64,000 bases of DNA, taken from contig NZ_JABMCJ010000090.1 in the NCBI RefSeq assembly GCF_013359755.1, forward strand, positions 186,001 to 250,000, written 5' to 3'. This document shows, in pieces, positions 25,417 through 50,171 of the stretch. Both the position numbers and the translations under genes were made by a program. The stretch comes from Tardiphaga robiniae (GTDB taxonomy: Bacteria > Pseudomonadota > Alphaproteobacteria > Rhizobiales > Xanthobacteraceae). Positions within the stretch are counted from its first letter, which is position 1, and each line of letters begins with the position of its first letter. Under the pieces are notes generated by a model. It saw only the letters and a program-made list of their open reading frames with translations, did no database searches and had not been told where the DNA came from.

Positions 25417-27630
25417 TCAATGATGACTGATGCGCAGATCTTGCGAGGTCTGCCGTAGTCGCCGGGTGAGTTCGCGCGCCAGGTTGCCCAGCAGCCTGGT
25501 GGCGAGCACCGGATTTTTCTTCAGGATCAGGTCGAAGCCGTCGCGCGGGAATTCGTAACAGACCACCGCGTCGTCGGCGACGATGGTCGCCGAGCGTGGC
25601 ACCGATTCCACCAGCGCCATTTCTCCGACCGTCGTGCCGCGGCCAAGTCCGGCGATGCGGCGTCGCTCGTGATGTCCGTCGGTGCGCAGCAACACGCTGA
25701 CGCTCCCTTTCAGGATCAGCCACATCCGGTCGCCGGCGTTGCCTTCGCGGCAGATCGTATCGCCACATGCGAATTCGCGTCTGGTCATTACTGCAGTCAG
25801 TTCGGCCATCTCGTTGGTGGAAACGCCATCGAGAAAGTCGATCTGCTCGAGCGTGAGTTCATCCGCTTGCCCCTGCCTCGCAGCGGAGCGGTCGAGCACG
25901 GTCTGCTCCATCCACTCCAGTGCGGAGTCGAGATCTTGTGTCATTGGCGGCGATGCCGCGTCGTGCTCGATCCCGTTGCCGATGATGGCGGCATGGACGG
26001 GCCGGACATTGCAGTAGATCAGTCGCCGTTTCTTTTCAGTCGCCTTCTGGCGCAGGGTTCGCAATGCGTTGATGCCGGACACGTCGAGGTCGGAGATGGC
26101 ACCCATGTCGAGCAGGATCATATCCGTGCTGTTGAACAAGTCCTTGACGCGGAGCGAGAGGTCGTCGGCATTGCCGAAGAACAGCGCGCCTTCGAGCTGC
26201 AGGATGGCGCGCTGCTGTCCGGTCTGCTGCAGGATCGCGAGATCGTCGGCCGAGCGAATGCGCTTGGAGAACAGTGTGTCGCCGAGATGGGCGCGGCGCA
26301 CCAGCGGCCGGCTCATATTGATGACGAAGATGATGCAGGACAGGATGATCCCGACAATGACTCCGGAAACCACCGAGCTGAACACGGTCACGGCCATCAC
26401 CGCGAGTACAACGATCAGATTATAAACGGCGTGGCGGCGAACCTGCGGCTCGCTTTTGTGTCTGACATCGGCCAGCAGTTGCAGATTCCAGCGATCGAAC
26501 AGCACGATGCCGATCACCAGAAGCAGGCCGGCGAACACCGCGCGCGGCACCTGTGCGAGCACCGACGACAGCGCGAATGTGATGGCCAACAGGCTGAGAG
26601 CCACGAAAATGCTGGTCCAGCGCGTGCGGCCGCCCATGCGATAGCCGAGCAGAATAACGGAAGGGATCGCCGATCCGCCGATGCCGCCGCCCAGCGCTGC
26701 TGCCGCATTGGCGATGCCCTGCGCGGCGAGGTCGCGCACCGGATGGATATGCGTATCGTCGAGCTGCTGTGCCACGCGAAACGCCAGCATGGTCTCCACA
26801 GTGCCGATGATCGCCAGCACCAGCGATACCAGCACGACATGCGGAAGCACGGCGGTCAGTTCCGGAGTGATCGAGCCGTCGAACACTGCACCGAGCGGCA
26901 TGGCCGGAGGGAAGCTGACATGGATCTCACCGATGGTCGGCCCGAGATCGAGACCGGTCGGGACGCTGATCAGATAGTAGAGCGCGGTGCCGGCGATGAA
27001 GCCTGCAAGCGATCCCGGTATCTTCCGCAGCCAGTCCGGCAGCCGCAGCCAGCCTGCTATTGCCGGATAGTTCAGAACAAAGAGCGCCAAGGCCACGACG
27101 TAAGCCAGCATCGCCGGCTTGTTCGGCCACAGCGTATGCGCGGCAAAGAACGGCTTGAACTGGGAAATCACGATCAGCATGCCGACGCCATTGAGCAGGC
27201 CGGTGAGTACCGGGTGCGGCGCGAATTTGATGGCGCGTGTCAGGCCGAGCAGCCCGAACAGGACCTGCCACAGCCCGGCCAGAAACAAACACAGCATGAT
27301 CGCGGTCACGATCATCGCGGGCTGGCTCGCAAGCGTGGCGTCATTGACCAGCGTCGTGGTCAGGCCGGCCTGCACCAGGGCCATGCTGACGCGGCTCGTC
27401 GTCACGATATAGGACGAGGTGGCGACCACGGCCGCGACCAGGCCGACGATGGCGCCGCCATACAGGCCGGCTGCAGCGCCGGCTGCGACATAGTCGGGGC
27501 CGAGCGGCGCAAACACCAGCAGTCCGCAAGCAAGGCAGAGCGGCAGGCAGACGAGGCTTGAGATCAGACCGGCGCTGATTTCCGATCGCCAGTCGACGAG
27601 CGGCTCGGCGGGAGGCGAAGCTTTGAGCAC
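25417..27630 (-). CDS. SulP-family anion transporter with STAS and cyclic-nucleotide-binding domains
   Basis: A 737-residue inner-membrane protein in three parts. Residues about 15-430 are the SulP transporter (SLVCLPLCLACGLLVFAPLG, later GGGIGGSAIPSVILLGYRMG). Residues about 450-560 are a STAS domain (RAILQLEGALFFGNADDL, LLDMGAISDLDVSGINAL). Residues about 605-725 are a cNMP-binding fold (GDTICREGNAGDRMWLILKG, then VGEMALVESVPRSAT with the family's phosphate-binding GE and R residues). SulP proteins carry sulphate, bicarbonate or dicarboxylates. The terminal domain suggests control by cAMP or cGMP, or a structural role. It converges on the RidA-like gene, with five bases between them. Confidence 0.9.
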   Translation of the reverse strand: MLKASPPAEPLVDWRSEISAGLISSLVCLPLCLACGLLVFAPLGPDYVAAGAAAGLYGGAIVGLVAAVVATSSYIVTTSRVSMALVQAGLTTTLVNDATLASQPAMIVTAIMLCLFLAGLWQVLFGLLGLTRAIKFAPHPVLTGLLNGVGMLIVISQFKPFFAAHTLWPNKPAMLAYVVALALFVLNYPAIAGWLRLPDWLRKIPGSLAGFIAGTALYYLISVPTGLDLGPTIGEIHVSFPPAMPLGAVFDGSITPELTAVLPHVVLVSLVLAIIGTVETMLAFRVAQQLDDTHIHPVRDLAAQGIANAAAALGGGIGGSAIPSVILLGYRMGGRTRWTSIFVALSLLAITFALSSVLAQVPRAVFAGLLLVIGIVLFDRWNLQLLADVRHKSEPQVRRHAVYNLIVVLAVMAVTVFSSVVSGVIVGIILSCIIFVINMSRPLVRRAHLGDTLFSKRIRSADDLAILQQTGQQRAILQLEGALFFGNADDLSLRVKDLFNSTDMILLDMGAISDLDVSGINALRTLRQKATEKKRRLIYCNVRPVHAAIIGNGIEHDAASPPMTQDLDSALEWMEQTVLDRSAARQGQADELTLEQIDFLDGVSTNEMAELTAVMTRREFACGDTICREGNAGDRMWLILKGSVSVLLRTDGHHERRRIAGLGRGTTVGEMALVESVPRSATIVADDAVVCYEFPRDGFDLILKKNPVLATRLLGNLARELTRRLRQTSQDLRISHH

Positions 27631-42757: not shown

Positions 42758-45700
42758 TCAGTTTTGATCTGTCATCAATGCTGCATTGCCACCCGCGGCG
42801 GCGGTGTTGATCGTCACCGTCTGTTCGGTGGCGAAGCGGGCGAGGTAATGCGGGCCGCCGGCCTTTGGGCCGGTGCCGGACAGGCCGAAGCCGCCGAAGG
42901 GCTGCACGCCGACCACGGCGCCGATCATGTTGCGGTTCACATAGACATTGCCGACCGGCAGGCGCGCGATCACGCGCTCAACCATATCGTCGATCCGCGA
43001 ATGCACGCCGAGCGTGAGCCCGAAGCCGGTGTCGGCAATATCCTGCAGCACCTTGTCGAAGCCGGCAGCGCGGTAGCGGACCACATGCAGGATCGGGCCG
43101 AACACTTCTTCGGTGAGCTCACGTGCGCTCGCGAGTTCGAAAATATGCGGCGCGACGAAGTTGCCCGCAGGTGCCATGCCCGCAAAGTGCACGCGTGCCT
43201 CGATCGTCATGCGCGCAATATGCGCATCCAGCTTCTGCTTCGCTTCGGCATCGATCACCGGGCCGATATGGGTGGAGGCATCCCGGGGATCGCCGAGCTT
43301 GAGTTCCCGGGCCGCGCCAACGATCATCTCGATCATGCGGTCGGCGACATCGTCCTGCAGGAGCAGCAGCCGCAACGCCGAGCAACGCTGCCCGGCCGAC
43401 CGGAACGCCGACATCACCACATCGTCGGCGACCTGTTCCGGCAGCGCAGTGGCATCGACGATCATCGCATTGATGCCGCCGGTCTCGGCGATCAGTGGCA
43501 CGATCGGGCCATCCTTGGCGGCGATGGTGCGGTTGATGGATCGGGCCACCTCGGTCGAGCCGGTGAACACCACACCGGCGATGGCGGGATGCGCGACGAG
43601 CGCCGCCCCGATGCGGCCGTCGCCCTGGATCAGATGCAATGCTGACGTGGGCACACCCGCTTCATGAAGCAGGCGTACGGCCCGTGCGGCGATGCGTGGC
43701 GTTTGTTCGGCCGGCTTGGCGACAACCGTGTTGCCCGCCATCAGCGCGGCGCTGACCTGGCCGAGAAAGATCGCCAGCGGAAAATTCCACGGCGAGATGG
43801 CGACGAAGACGCCACGGCCGCGCAGGCTCAACACGTTGCTCTCGCCGGTGGGCCCGGGCATCACCTCGCCCTCGCCGAATTGCTTGCGGCCCTGCGTGGC
43901 GTAGTAACGGCAGAAGTCGATGGCTTCGCGGACCTCCGACAGCGCATCATCAAGCGTCTTGCCGCCTTCCTGTTGCAGCAATGCGATGAAGGACGCGCGG
44001 CGCTGTTCCAGACGATCGGCGGCGTTGTCGAGGATCGCCGCGCGTTCATGTGCTGGGGTGTGGCTCCATGACGCAAAGCCTGCGCGCGCTGCCGTCACCG
44101 CGGCATTTGCCTGCTCGGCATTGGCATCAACGACCTCGTCCATGTCTGGCTTGCTGGCCGCAATCTCGGCCAGCAATTCATCCAATGCGGCGCGTTCGCC
44201 AAATTCGATGCCGTGTGAATTGGTCCGCTCTGGTCGATAGAGATCGGCCGGCAAAGGGATCTTCGGATGGTGCGCACCATTCGAAGAGCCGATGATCGCG
44301 GCAGGCCGCTTAAGCAGCGTCGCGATCGGCACGGCGTCATCCGCGGCGATCGCCACGAAAGATGAGTTCGCGCCATTCTCCAGCAGCCGTCGCACCAGAT
44401 AGGCCAGCAGATCGCGATGGCTGCCGACCGGCGCATAGGTGCGCCAGCGGATCGCGGGATGATCCTTGCCGAGTTGCTCGTAAAGCGCGTCGCCCATGCC
44501 GTGCAGGCGCTGGAATTCGTAGCCGCCGCTGGTGCCAGCCAGTTCGAGGATGGTCGCGACGGTGAGCGCATTGTGAGTGGCGAATTGCGGAAAGATGCGT
44601 GGCCGTAAAGCCAGCAGCTTCTGTGCGCAGGCGATGTAGTTGAGGTCGGTCATCGCCTTGCGCGTGAACACCGGATAGCCGGCGAGCCCGCGTTCCTGCG
44701 CGCGCTTGATCTCGGTGTCCCAATAGGCGCCCTTGACGAGCCGCACCATCATCTTGCGATCGTGACGGCGCGCCAGCGCGTCGATGTGATCGATCACATC
44801 CGCGCAGCGCTTCTGATAGGCCTGGATCGCAAGCCCGAATCCGTCCCATCCCGCCAGCGACGGATCGGCAAAGGCCGCATCGATGACATCGAGCGAGAGT
44901 TCGAGCCGGTCGGCTTCTTCGGCATCGACGGTGAAATTGAGGTCATAGCTCTTCGCTTGCTGCGCCAGCACGATCAGGCGCGGCACGAGTTCATGCATCA
45001 CGCGCTGATGGCTCACCGCCTCATAGCGCGGATGCAATGCCGAGAGTTTGACCGAAATACCCGGCCGGTCGGGCAGCGGGTTGTTGCCCGCGGCGTGGCC
45101 GATGGCCGAGATGGCCGATGCATAGGAGTCGAAATAGCGCTGCGCGTCGTCCTTGGTGCGCGCGCCTTCGCCGAGCATGTCGAAGGAATAGCGCGCCGGA
45201 CGCTCGGACGGTGCACGCGCGCGGGCCAGCGCTGCATCGATGGTTTCGCCGAGCACGAAGTGGCTGCCCATCAGCCGCATCGCCTGCCGCGTCGCCGTGC
45301 GCACCGCAGGCAGGCCGATCCGCTTCGCCAGCCGGCCCAGCGTGCCCGTCGGCGTCTCGCCCGGCTGAATCGCCCGCTGCGAGATGCCGAGCGCCCATGC
45401 GGAGGCGTTGACCAGAAACGCGCTGGATCTGGTCTCGTGATGGATGAAGTCGCCCTGGCCGAGCTTGTCCTCGATGAAGGCGTCGGCGGTCCGCGCGTCC
45501 GGTACACGCAGCAGCGCCTCCGCCAGCACCATCAGCGCAAGGCCCTCTTTGGTGGAGAGCGCATATTCCCGCAACATGTCCTCGACACCGCCGAAACGGT
45601 CGTCCTTGGCGCGGATCGCGTCGATCAGGCGCGTCGCCGTTGCGTCGATCTGTGCGTCCTGGGCGGGCGTCATGGCCGCGCCGGCCAGAAGCCCGGCGGC

Positions 45701-45760
45701 GATGGCCGCATCATCCGGTGCATAGGGAGCGGCGAAGGGAGGCATGAAATCGGGCGGCAT
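42758..45760 (-). CDS. putA: Bifunctional proline dehydrogenase / P5C dehydrogenase PutA
   Basis: A 1000-residue bifunctional enzyme oxidising proline to glutamate: FAD-dependent proline dehydrogenase first, then NAD-dependent P5C dehydrogenase. The N-terminal half carries the PRODH barrel (PDRPGISVKLSALHPRYEAV, MMVRLVKGAYWDTEIKRAQE). The C-terminal half carries the aldehyde dehydrogenase (SPWNFPLAIFLGQVSAALMA, ETGGINAMIVD and catalytic Cys in SAGQRCSALRLLL). It lacks the N-terminal ribbon-helix-helix DNA-binding domain of E. coli PutA, so it cannot repress its own gene. The size equals the short Bradyrhizobium PutA type. It is divergent from an Lrp-type gene. Confidence 0.97.
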   Translation of the reverse strand: MPPDFMPPFAAPYAPDDAAIAAGLLAGAAMTPAQDAQIDATATRLIDAIRAKDDRFGGVEDMLREYALSTKEGLALMVLAEALLRVPDARTADAFIEDKLGQGDFIHHETRSSAFLVNASAWALGISQRAIQPGETPTGTLGRLAKRIGLPAVRTATRQAMRLMGSHFVLGETIDAALARARAPSERPARYSFDMLGEGARTKDDAQRYFDSYASAISAIGHAAGNNPLPDRPGISVKLSALHPRYEAVSHQRVMHELVPRLIVLAQQAKSYDLNFTVDAEEADRLELSLDVIDAAFADPSLAGWDGFGLAIQAYQKRCADVIDHIDALARRHDRKMMVRLVKGAYWDTEIKRAQERGLAGYPVFTRKAMTDLNYIACAQKLLALRPRIFPQFATHNALTVATILELAGTSGGYEFQRLHGMGDALYEQLGKDHPAIRWRTYAPVGSHRDLLAYLVRRLLENGANSSFVAIAADDAVPIATLLKRPAAIIGSSNGAHHPKIPLPADLYRPERTNSHGIEFGERAALDELLAEIAASKPDMDEVVDANAEQANAAVTAARAGFASWSHTPAHERAAILDNAADRLEQRRASFIALLQQEGGKTLDDALSEVREAIDFCRYYATQGRKQFGEGEVMPGPTGESNVLSLRGRGVFVAISPWNFPLAIFLGQVSAALMAGNTVVAKPAEQTPRIAARAVRLLHEAGVPTSALHLIQGDGRIGAALVAHPAIAGVVFTGSTEVARSINRTIAAKDGPIVPLIAETGGINAMIVDATALPEQVADDVVMSAFRSAGQRCSALRLLLLQDDVADRMIEMIVGAARELKLGDPRDASTHIGPVIDAEAKQKLDAHIARMTIEARVHFAGMAPAGNFVAPHIFELASARELTEEVFGPILHVVRYRAAGFDKVLQDIADTGFGLTLGVHSRIDDMVERVIARLPVGNVYVNRNMIGAVVGVQPFGGFGLSGTGPKAGGPHYLARFATEQTVTINTAAAGGNAALMTDQN

Positions 45761-48291: not shown

Positions 48292-50052
48292 TTAAAGCGC
48301 GGAAACCATGTCGCTGGTAACGAGAGACGAAAGCAACTTCGCATCTGTGATCGTGCGGACATTCATCGGCGCGGCGCGACCGCGGATCGCGACGTCCTGT
48401 TGTGGCAGCGCGTCACCCGCGAGGCCTGCAGTGGTGCTTACTTCTTCGGAGATGATGACTTCGCAAGCGAGGCTCTTGGTCATGTCCTGCAGGCGTGCAG
48501 CGACATTGACCGCATCGCCGAGTGCGGTGAACACCATGTGGTCGCGATAGCCGATATCGCCGACGATGACTTCGCCGCCGTGAATGCCGATGCCGAAACG
48601 CAGCGGCTGCGGCAGGTCATGGGCGAGGGCGCGATTGAGTTCCTCGATATTCTCGGCAATGAGCCGTGCAGCCTGCAGGGCCTGACGACACGCGGTCTGC
48701 GGATCGCAGGCGAGGCCGAACAGCGCCAGCTCGCCGTCGCCGATGAACTGGTTGGGCTTGCCGCCGCTTGCGATCACAGCTCGCGAGACGGCGTCGAGAA
48801 AGCGGTTGACGATGAACACGGTGTCGTAAGGCAGCCGCTTCTCGGCGAGCATGGTGGAGCCGCGCATGTCGACGAACATGCAGACGAGATAACGCTCCTG
48901 GCCGATCCGCGCCGGCTGCGATGCGTGCGCATTCGCGCTGGTCACTTGCGGAGCGAACAGTTGAACGAAGGCCACATCAGTTGTCGGCCGCAACTGGCAG
49001 GCCAGCCGGACCGCGGGATCTGCAGCGCCGCCGATCCTGCTCAGCACGAAGGCTTCGCGCGCGGAAGGTGCCGGCAATGTCTCGACACCGCTGGTGACGC
49101 GAATGCGGCAGGTCGAACAGCGCGCGCGTCCGCCGCAGACGCTGGCATGCGGCACGCGATGACGTAGGCTCGCTTCCAGCACGCTGAGGCCGAGAGGGAC
49201 GCGCAGCTTGCGACCGTCGCTATAGGAGAGATTGATCATGCCGGCGCGGCGTTCGACGACCATGCGGATGGCACGGGCCGCGAGCACGATACCAAGCAGC
49301 GCGAGATAGCCGATCAGGAGATCGTCGGTGATGTCGCCCAGTGTCTGCTGCTGTGGAGCGGTGCCCATCCGGTCCGGGCCGAAATTCTCGGCCTGCCATT
49401 GCGGCGATGCCAGCTTGGCCTCGACCTCACGCTTGCCCTGGAAGATACCAAGCAGCGCCAGTGTCGGGATCAGCACGGCAGCCGACAGAAGATAGGGCGC
49501 CAGGCTCCTGAAGTGTGCTTTCAGCCGCAGCCAGAAATACAATCCGATACACCCGTGTAGCCAGGAGACGACCACCACGAGATACATCGACCACGTCTTC
49601 GCGGGCGAGGTGATCCAGCCATAGAACACCTGGGGATAGCTGCGATTGATGTCGTACAGGTTTTCGCCCAGGCGGACGGCGACCACATGGCCGACGATGA
49701 GTGCGGGAATGCTGAGCCCGAGCACCAGTTGCAGCGGCTCGACGGCTCGCCAGCGGAATTGCCGGCGTTCGAACAGCGCCCAGACGCCGAGCACGCCATG
49801 GATCGTCACCGCCGAATAGAAGGTCACCGCGACCGGAAAAAACTGCCAGAAGCCGGCATGAATCACGACGCCGGTCTGCAACGCGTCGAGCGAGATATTG
49901 CCAAGCGCGTGATTCAGAAAATGGCTGAGCAGATAGGTGAACAGCACCAGTCCGCAGACCAGCCTGACCTGGCGCAGCCCGATGCCGCGCCACCACGCGG
50001 TGGCGGGGGTGGCCCCGGGCGGCCTGCTGGCTGTCTTGAACGTCGCGTCCAT
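48292..50052 (-). CDS. Nucleotide cyclase with SdhC-like haem anchor and [2Fe-2S] domain
   Basis: A 586-residue fusion in three parts. Residues about 25-205 contain five or six membrane helices with conserved-looking histidines (H44, H48, H85, H122, H166), resembling the SdhC/fumarate-reductase b-haem anchor. Residues about 240-265 are one more helix. Residues 275-365 are a plant-type ferredoxin with C306, C312, C315 and C352. Residues 387-570 are a class III cyclase: metal ligands D395 (CMFVDMRGST) and D439 (FIGDGELALFG), N516 and R520 (GDAVNVAARLQ). The base-contact Lys is Gln435 and the paired Asp is Thr509. Likely senses membrane redox or quinone state and makes cAMP or cGMP. A related anchor is known from the redox-controlled CyaC of Sinorhizobium; the extra ferredoxin domain is notable. 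Confidence 0.9.
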   Translation of the reverse strand: MDATFKTASRPPGATPATAWWRGIGLRQVRLVCGLVLFTYLLSHFLNHALGNISLDALQTGVVIHAGFWQFFPVAVTFYSAVTIHGVLGVWALFERRQFRWRAVEPLQLVLGLSIPALIVGHVVAVRLGENLYDINRSYPQVFYGWITSPAKTWSMYLVVVVSWLHGCIGLYFWLRLKAHFRSLAPYLLSAAVLIPTLALLGIFQGKREVEAKLASPQWQAENFGPDRMGTAPQQQTLGDITDDLLIGYLALLGIVLAARAIRMVVERRAGMINLSYSDGRKLRVPLGLSVLEASLRHRVPHASVCGGRARCSTCRIRVTSGVETLPAPSAREAFVLSRIGGAADPAVRLACQLRPTTDVAFVQLFAPQVTSANAHASQPARIGQERYLVCMFVDMRGSTMLAEKRLPYDTVFIVNRFLDAVSRAVIASGGKPNQFIGDGELALFGLACDPQTACRQALQAARLIAENIEELNRALAHDLPQPLRFGIGIHGGEVIVGDIGYRDHMVFTALGDAVNVAARLQDMTKSLACEVIISEEVSTTAGLAGDALPQQDVAIRGRAAPMNVRTITDAKLLSSLVTSDMVSAL

Positions 50053-50171
50053 GGCGAAACCCTACGGCGAGACGCGCTCCGATGCCATCCGGAGCGGCCT
50101 CCGGACAGACCTTATCCAGCAGTAAAGTCAACAAGTTGACAGCATGGCGAAGTCCGCCGAAAAGCTCGGCG

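Follow-up and report, generated by a model that had tools for sequence, protein, structure and literature searches.

A 64,000-nucleotide stretch of DNA from the soil bacterium Tardiphaga robiniae (hereafter the window) contains a gene encoding a 586-residue protein in which a membrane domain with spaced histidines is fused to a ferredoxin domain and a class III nucleotide cyclase domain. The arrangement raises the question of which signal controls the cyclase, and whether the membrane-ferredoxin module serves cyclases alone. Judged from the sequence and by analogy with CyaC of Sinorhizobium meliloti, the protein is probably best explained as a class III nucleotide cyclase of the CyaC type that is under redox control, with two b haems, a [2Fe-2S] cluster and quinone as the input. 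The three-module architecture is of an already published kind. New here is a sister clade that is without the cyclase and is tied to MscS-type channels.

Domain composition of the 586-residue protein

The open reading frame described in a preliminary description of the window was borne out as a gene with an ATG start on the minus strand (Table 1). Pfam recognized Fer2 with 28.4 bits against a gathering score of 21 (E=1.6e-6) and Guanylate_cyc with 37.2 bits against a gathering score of 21.9 (E=2.9e-9), and returned no family for the membrane part. Searches of PDB sequences with phmmer matched the cyclase domain to class III cyclases (best E 5.7e-18), the best matches carrying the name adenylyl cyclase, and the ferredoxin domain to [2Fe-2S] proteins of the ferredoxin, putidaredoxin and adrenodoxin type (best E 5.8e-8). 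The histidines at 44, 48, 85, 122 and 166 and the ferredoxin cysteines at 306, 312, 315 and 352 that the preliminary description listed were all found at those positions, and the two metal-binding aspartates that it claimed for the cyclase correspond to D395 and D439. H65, absent from its list, is invariant in close relatives.

Table 1. Coordinates of the cyclase gene and its predicted features in the window.
Feature	Position	Strand	Basis
6TM (diheme-type) - [2Fe-2S] ferredoxin - class III cyclase fusion, 586 aa	48292..50052	(-)	ATG start
Predicted six-helix membrane domain, about residues 22-270	49243..49989	(-)	AlphaFold2, residues 18-271, and fold search
H44, helix 1, predicted haem ligand	49921..49923	(-)	82/82 distant homologues
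H85, helix 2, predicted haem ligand	49798..49800	(-)	82/82 distant homologues
H122, helix 3, predicted haem ligand	49687..49689	(-)	81/82 distant homologues
H166, helix 4, predicted haem ligand	49555..49557	(-)	82/82 distant homologues
[2Fe-2S] ferredoxin domain, residues 280-357; C306, C312, C315, C352	48982..49215	(-)	Pfam Fer2 and PDB matches
Ferredoxin-cyclase linker, about residues 367-388	48889..48954	(-)	Low identity to distant homologues
Class III cyclase domain, residues 391-541	48430..48882	(-)	Pfam Guanylate_cyc and PDB matches
Q435 at the presumed canonical purine-specifying Lys position	48748..48750	(-)	Residue table; site assigned by motif

A search of the T. robiniae genome with the 586-residue protein gave 16 matches including the gene itself, and the membrane part was covered by no other. 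Thirteen matches fell within the cyclase part or reached no further than the linker before it, one was confined to the ferredoxin part and one spanned the ferredoxin into the cyclase (query 302-540).

Distribution and residue conservation

A GTDB genome scan in which 81 loci passed and 80 were kept, mostly from Bradyrhizobium and Tardiphaga, identified relatives with a best-segment identity of 58-93%, most of them full length. Since these 80 loci in other genomes encode relatives in a conserved neighbourhood, the gene is not a chance open reading frame. A full-length profile matched 50 of 149 genomes of Tardiphaga's family (E<=1e-60). The profile of the membrane and ferredoxin domains matched 83 of 199 genomes in a second family of the order (E<=1e-40) and, at E<=1e-15 with the T. 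robiniae genome counted, 89 of 297 genomes of the order (six of these by anchor-only proteins) and 45 of 398 genomes sampled across the phylum (one by the ferredoxin part only).

Residue conservation was evaluated in an alignment of 171 homologues, obtained from 191 matches after removal of 20 with identical C-terminal 300 residues and comprising 89 close rows (88 loci, including the window's own gene as L092) and 82 distant rows. Among the distant rows H44, H85 and H166 are invariant (82/82), H122 is present in 81 and H48 in 73. H48 was rejected as a haem ligand on the basis of its loss in nine of these rows, which indicates that it probably does not bind haem, and H65 was rejected as near-exclusive to close relatives. 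At the 14 positions examined, deviations among the close rows are confined to L040, L052, L081 and two L087 fragments. A contig end truncates L052 and L081, and L040 has one different cyclase residue in an over-long frame. The L087 copy from Bradyrhizobium macuxiense (L087:10001-11772) matches along its length at 58% (best segment), with a frame broken in the ferredoxin-cyclase region that a frameshift or sequencing error could explain.

Median identities of the window protein to 72 distant rows were 31% for the membrane domain, 49% for the ferredoxin, 21% for the linker and 44% for the cyclase. The linker is the least conserved part and therefore gives no indication that a rigid helix couples the two domains. 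The ferredoxin is the best conserved domain, and C306, C312, C315 and C352 are all kept in 76 of the 82 distant homologues, that is, in every one with a ferredoxin domain, a pattern also compatible with the iron-sulfur cluster itself sensing oxidative stress, NO or iron supply. The haem anchor would then mainly keep the cluster reduced, and the cyclase output would report the state of the cluster rather than that of the quinone pool. That the cluster has this role is nevertheless considered unlikely, since the available text of PMC10463352 reports CyaC to be quinone-responsive through its haems, and since the remaining six distant homologues are anchor-only proteins that lack the ferredoxin, five of them keeping all four haem histidines and one keeping three. 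Retention of these histidines in proteins without a ferredoxin indicates that the anchor can be functional by itself.

The anchor-only homologues (L135-L140) are proteins of 242-358 residues from one genus, in which the haem histidines are mostly kept and both the ferredoxin and the cyclase are absent; as judged from their sequences they appear to be a third form of the module. The anchor-only gene of L136 adjoins a gene for a CobW-type GTPase (Pfam), and other genes nearby in L135 and L136 resemble genes for zinc uptake.

Fold of the membrane domain

The membrane domain (residues 18-271) was modelled with AlphaFold2 using 49 close relatives, with a mean pLDDT of 81.7 and a pTM of 0.77. The model contains six helices, at residues 26-52, 72-95, 104-133, 150-177, 185-213 and 232-270, and places the conserved H44, H85, H122 and H166 on helices 1 to 4, so that the six-helix anchor with four spaced intramembrane histidines known from the published cyclases is found here as well. 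In Wolinella FrdC the four haem histidines are also located on the first four helices. A Foldseek search of the model against the PDB gave no match at E<=0.001. The cytochrome b of Wolinella quinol-fumarate reductase (QFR; 2bs4_C) was second by E-value (E=0.76), with a probability of 0.94 and a TM-score of 0.49, the best of both among the best 50 of 205 matches; a further QFR chain, 1e7p_C, had a probability of 0.69 and a TM-score of 0.46. The first match by E-value was an ABC transporter with a probability of 0.11, and apart from the Wolinella QFR chains the TM-score to the query was at most 0.27 among the best 50 of 205. The likeness to FrdC is accompanied by differences: the window protein has six helices in one chain fused to a ferredoxin and a cyclase, and the sequence similarity is not significant.

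Sequence comparisons were extended with a profile of 43 membrane domains, picked at steps from 113, to which four close sequences were added and from which L168 and L227 were excluded for length. Against PDB sequences the profile matched 8qag_A (E 0.02), a designed protein for which the match was taken as compositional, the SdhC chain 6lum_C (E 0.11) and the fumarate reductase chain 5xmj_C (E 3.1); the H44 column aligns with a histidine of the first matched helix in both the 6lum_C and 5xmj_C alignments. Pfam found Sdh_cyt weakly in three of the 43 members (best E 0.0047) and the unrelated SteA-like_C in five (best E 0.00093), and the window protein matches neither. The NCBIfam b558 family (TIGR02046) was matched in five of 249 genomes, none above the cut-off. 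The earlier claim that the helices are SdhC-like is thus supported by the fold match to the Wolinella cytochrome b but not proven, the sequence matches being weak and the fold E-value 0.76. Taken together, sequence and model suggest that the domain is likely SdhC-like.

The full-length protein was modelled with 29 close relatives at a mean pLDDT of 62, with parts of the ferredoxin and cyclase below 50. This model is too weak for any claim of inter-domain geometry or of a haem-to-cluster distance.

Comparison with CyaC and related cyclases

Tardiphaga and Bradyrhizobium belong to the same wider group as Rhodopseudomonas. Thirty class IIIb cyclases from alpha- and beta-Proteobacteria, exemplified by Q132R4 of Rhodopseudomonas palustris, were described as one cluster in eLife in 2016 (PMC4821796, available text); in these proteins a ferredoxin lies between the membrane and catalytic domains, and the anchors resemble cytochrome b of fumarate reductase or succinate dehydrogenase, with four spaced membrane histidines and a predicted diheme character. 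The order of six-helix anchor, ferredoxin and cyclase has thus been in print since 2016 (PMC4821796, available text). The window protein shares the domain order and the four spaced membrane histidines with cluster 1 of Beltz et al. 2016, including the ferredoxin between membrane and catalytic domains and a class IIIb catalytic domain (T509), and the available part of the published description contains no feature in which it differs.

For CyaC of S. meliloti (SMc01818), a figure legend in PMC10463352 shows a [2Fe-2S]2+ cluster along with two haem b; the accessible text states that the enzyme can be activated by quinone oxidation with the response via the haems. A redox-regulated diheme anchor of the CyaC type is also described in the accessible part of PMC9552081, and quinone control is stated again in that of PMC13259868. 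The preliminary description was in agreement with PMC10463352, as far as its text is available, in stating that a diheme anchor controls Sinorhizobium CyaC by the quinone redox state. It went astray in setting a full electron path in the window protein against CyaC, which by the same figure legend has both the haems and the cluster as well; with the three-module layout already published (PMC4821796, PMC10463352) that contrast is wrong. Compared by its description in these sources, CyaC resembles the window protein in its six-helix anchor, which in the window protein is predicted to be diheme-b as in CyaC, its [2Fe-2S] domain and its class III cyclase. The two differ in gene context, a TetR gene (CycR) directly preceding cyaC in S. 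meliloti, whereas the window cyclase has none among its immediate neighbours, the gene at that place being of the PMT_2 type. A search for S. meliloti CyaC through a TetR neighbour in the fetched homologous loci, with a crude motif filter for TetR, yielded nothing convincing; the one match lay 1.2 kb upstream in L183.

Cyclase active site and substrate

The residue table of the cyclase domain shows D395, D439, T509, N516 and R520. By motif assignment, D395 and D439 are presumably the metal ligands, N516 and R520 the transition-state residues and T509 the class IIIb-type residue. Class IIIb is defined by a threonine replacing the adenine-binding aspartate. The metal aspartate pair and the transition-state asparagine and arginine of the canonical adenylate cyclase site are thus present, and the purine-specifying lysine is not, glutamine occupying position 435, which on the basis of motif we take to be the lysine site. 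In the close rows glutamine is found here in 87 of 89, and in the distant rows lysine in 54, glutamine in 10 and another residue or a gap in 18 of 82. When a different set was counted by motif, lysine was present in 83, glutamine in six and asparagine in four of 101 distinct proteins, with eight lacking the motif; with repeats included (119 entries) the counts were 97, six, eight and eight, respectively. L148, L150 and L163 are among the few distant members in which more site residues differ or are misaligned. The apparent replacement of the canonical ATP-specifying lysine by Q435 in the window's clade is new here.

Since residue 435 varies in the family, ATP as the sole substrate is not to be assumed. 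The redox-controlled cyclase might make a product other than, or in addition to, cAMP, with the glutamine loosening purine selectivity in favour of GTP or some other nucleotide, a reading considered rather doubtful. The distribution of Q435 among close and distant rows is in its favour, as are the fold matches of the full-length model; solely cyclases appear among the best 50 of 225 matches, with the guanylyl cyclase Cya2 at the top and a cUMP synthase among those listed. The second specificity residue, T509, is nevertheless of the class IIIb adenylyl type, and the PDB sequence matches that rank best are named adenylyl cyclases. Some adenylyl cyclases have glutamine at the lysine position; a literature search for such enzymes gave nothing relevant among the matches listed. 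The most likely product is cAMP.

Gene neighbourhood

The divergent upstream neighbour of the cyclase gene encodes a PMT_2-family membrane protein (Pfam). Among the 80 related loci, many of which are cut by contig ends, a PMT_2-type gene is found in 73, a putA-type gene in 68 and an Lrp-type gene in 40. The putA-type gene of the window (42758-45760, minus strand) encodes a bifunctional proline catabolism enzyme with the Pfam domains Pro_dh-DNA_bdg, Pro_dh and Aldedh. PutA-type enzymes pass electrons to quinone, and for this reason a functional link to the cyclase is conceivable.

A perfect palindrome, GTCAAC-N2-GTTGAC, lies in the gap that separates the cyclase gene from the divergent gene upstream (50127-50140); it was rejected as a family operator, the pattern being present in six of 77 close upstream regions. 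A FixK-like consensus pattern with a six-base spacer was found in none of these 77 regions. Elsewhere in the window, a 737-residue protein (25417-27630, minus strand) contains the Pfam domains Sulfate_transp and STAS and a C-terminal cNMP_binding domain, and this transporter could be a target of the cyclic nucleotide. In L271 a gene with a metallo-beta-lactamase fold (Lactamase_B_2, E 3e-16) is located upstream of the cyclase, and the counterparts in L273 and L276 look alike.

A sister clade with an MscS-family gene

Eighteen short homologues of 368-495 residues (longest open reading frame) keep the six helices and the ferredoxin and lack the cyclase. They occur at L141, L143-L145 and L223-L236, for example at L227:3217-6800. 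An open reading frame matching an MscS profile lies on the same strand after or overlapping the short form in all 18 loci. Its start forms a 4-base stop/start overlap with the short gene in 12 loci (ATGA in 11, GTGA in one) and lies 6 and 72 bases downstream in two; in the other four the short gene and the longest MscS frame, whose true start may lie elsewhere, share 88 to 696 bases. Four MscS partners were confirmed by Pfam, and the same four seeded the MscS profile. The four short forms tabulated retain the four haem histidines and four cysteines. Among 119 entries longer than 520 residues (101 distinct proteins, often with little flanking sequence) an MscS gene was found near two, and in both cases it is paired with a short form that also lies in the fetched stretch. 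The short form and the window cyclase are therefore alike in the membrane-Fer2 module and differ in that the former lacks the cyclase and has an MscS-family gene next to it.

In a quickly built maximum-likelihood tree with 83 rows, the short forms lie on one side of a branch with an SH-aLRT value of 99. The tree covers loci numbered L135 and higher, the window protein and seven close relatives, and excludes most odd-numbered cyclase rows, the anchor-only forms, L166 and L099-L134. A non-exhaustive literature search found no report of a pair of membrane-ferredoxin protein and MscS among the matches listed.

The short forms also bear on the view that the protein serves chiefly in electron transfer, as an enzyme passing electrons from quinol or haem through the ferredoxin to a cytoplasmic acceptor, with the cyclase reporting turnover. 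Haem and cluster would make up a complete transfer chain, the sister clade has the cyclase-less module as a separate protein, and the conserved putA-type gene, for a proline dehydrogenase, lies about 2.5 kb off. That gene is not adjacent to the cyclase, however, an Lrp-type gene and two small genes lying between, and the partner of the cyclase-less form is in every locus a channel gene and not a redox enzyme. An electron-transfer function of this kind is accordingly regarded as highly improbable.

The loss of the cyclase and the pairing with MscS in the sister clade suggest an exchangeable redox-sensing module. We tentatively propose that the haem-b/[2Fe-2S] module may be an exchangeable redox input, which in the cyclase fusion would lead to a cyclic nucleotide, the choice of nucleotide possibly altered by Q435, and in the sister clade to an MscS-family channel gated or assembled by the quinone redox state.

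Proposed mechanism and implications

For the CyaC-type cyclase, the preferred explanation, the membrane domain would hold two b haems with H44, H85, H122 and H166 as ligands, likely paired as H44 with H122 and H85 with H166 by analogy with the anchor of Wolinella fumarate reductase. The haems would exchange electrons with the ubiquinone pool, as reported for S. meliloti CyaC, and the redox state would be relayed through the [2Fe-2S] domain to a cyclase homodimer. The relay might consist of electrons passing directly from quinone to the cyclase by way of haem and cluster, or equally well of a conformational signal. Oxidized quinone would turn the cyclase on if the sign is that reported for CyaC. 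The cAMP produced could then act on at least one of the 18 places in the genome at which a domain for binding cyclic nucleotides scores above the Pfam cut-off.

Related small genes lie directly upstream of the cyclase homologue in L142, L151, L152, L163, L170 and L190. The two tested, those of L142 and L190, encode a domain for binding cyclic nucleotides (Pfam, E 4.6e-22 and 2e-19), as would be expected for a working cyclic-nucleotide signal.

The 586-residue cyclase would be a widely conserved addition to the family of proteins that turn the quinone state into a second messenger. If the module is indeed exchangeable, the sister clade would possess an MscS-type channel controlled by respiration, and this clade makes the modularity of the redox sensor directly testable.
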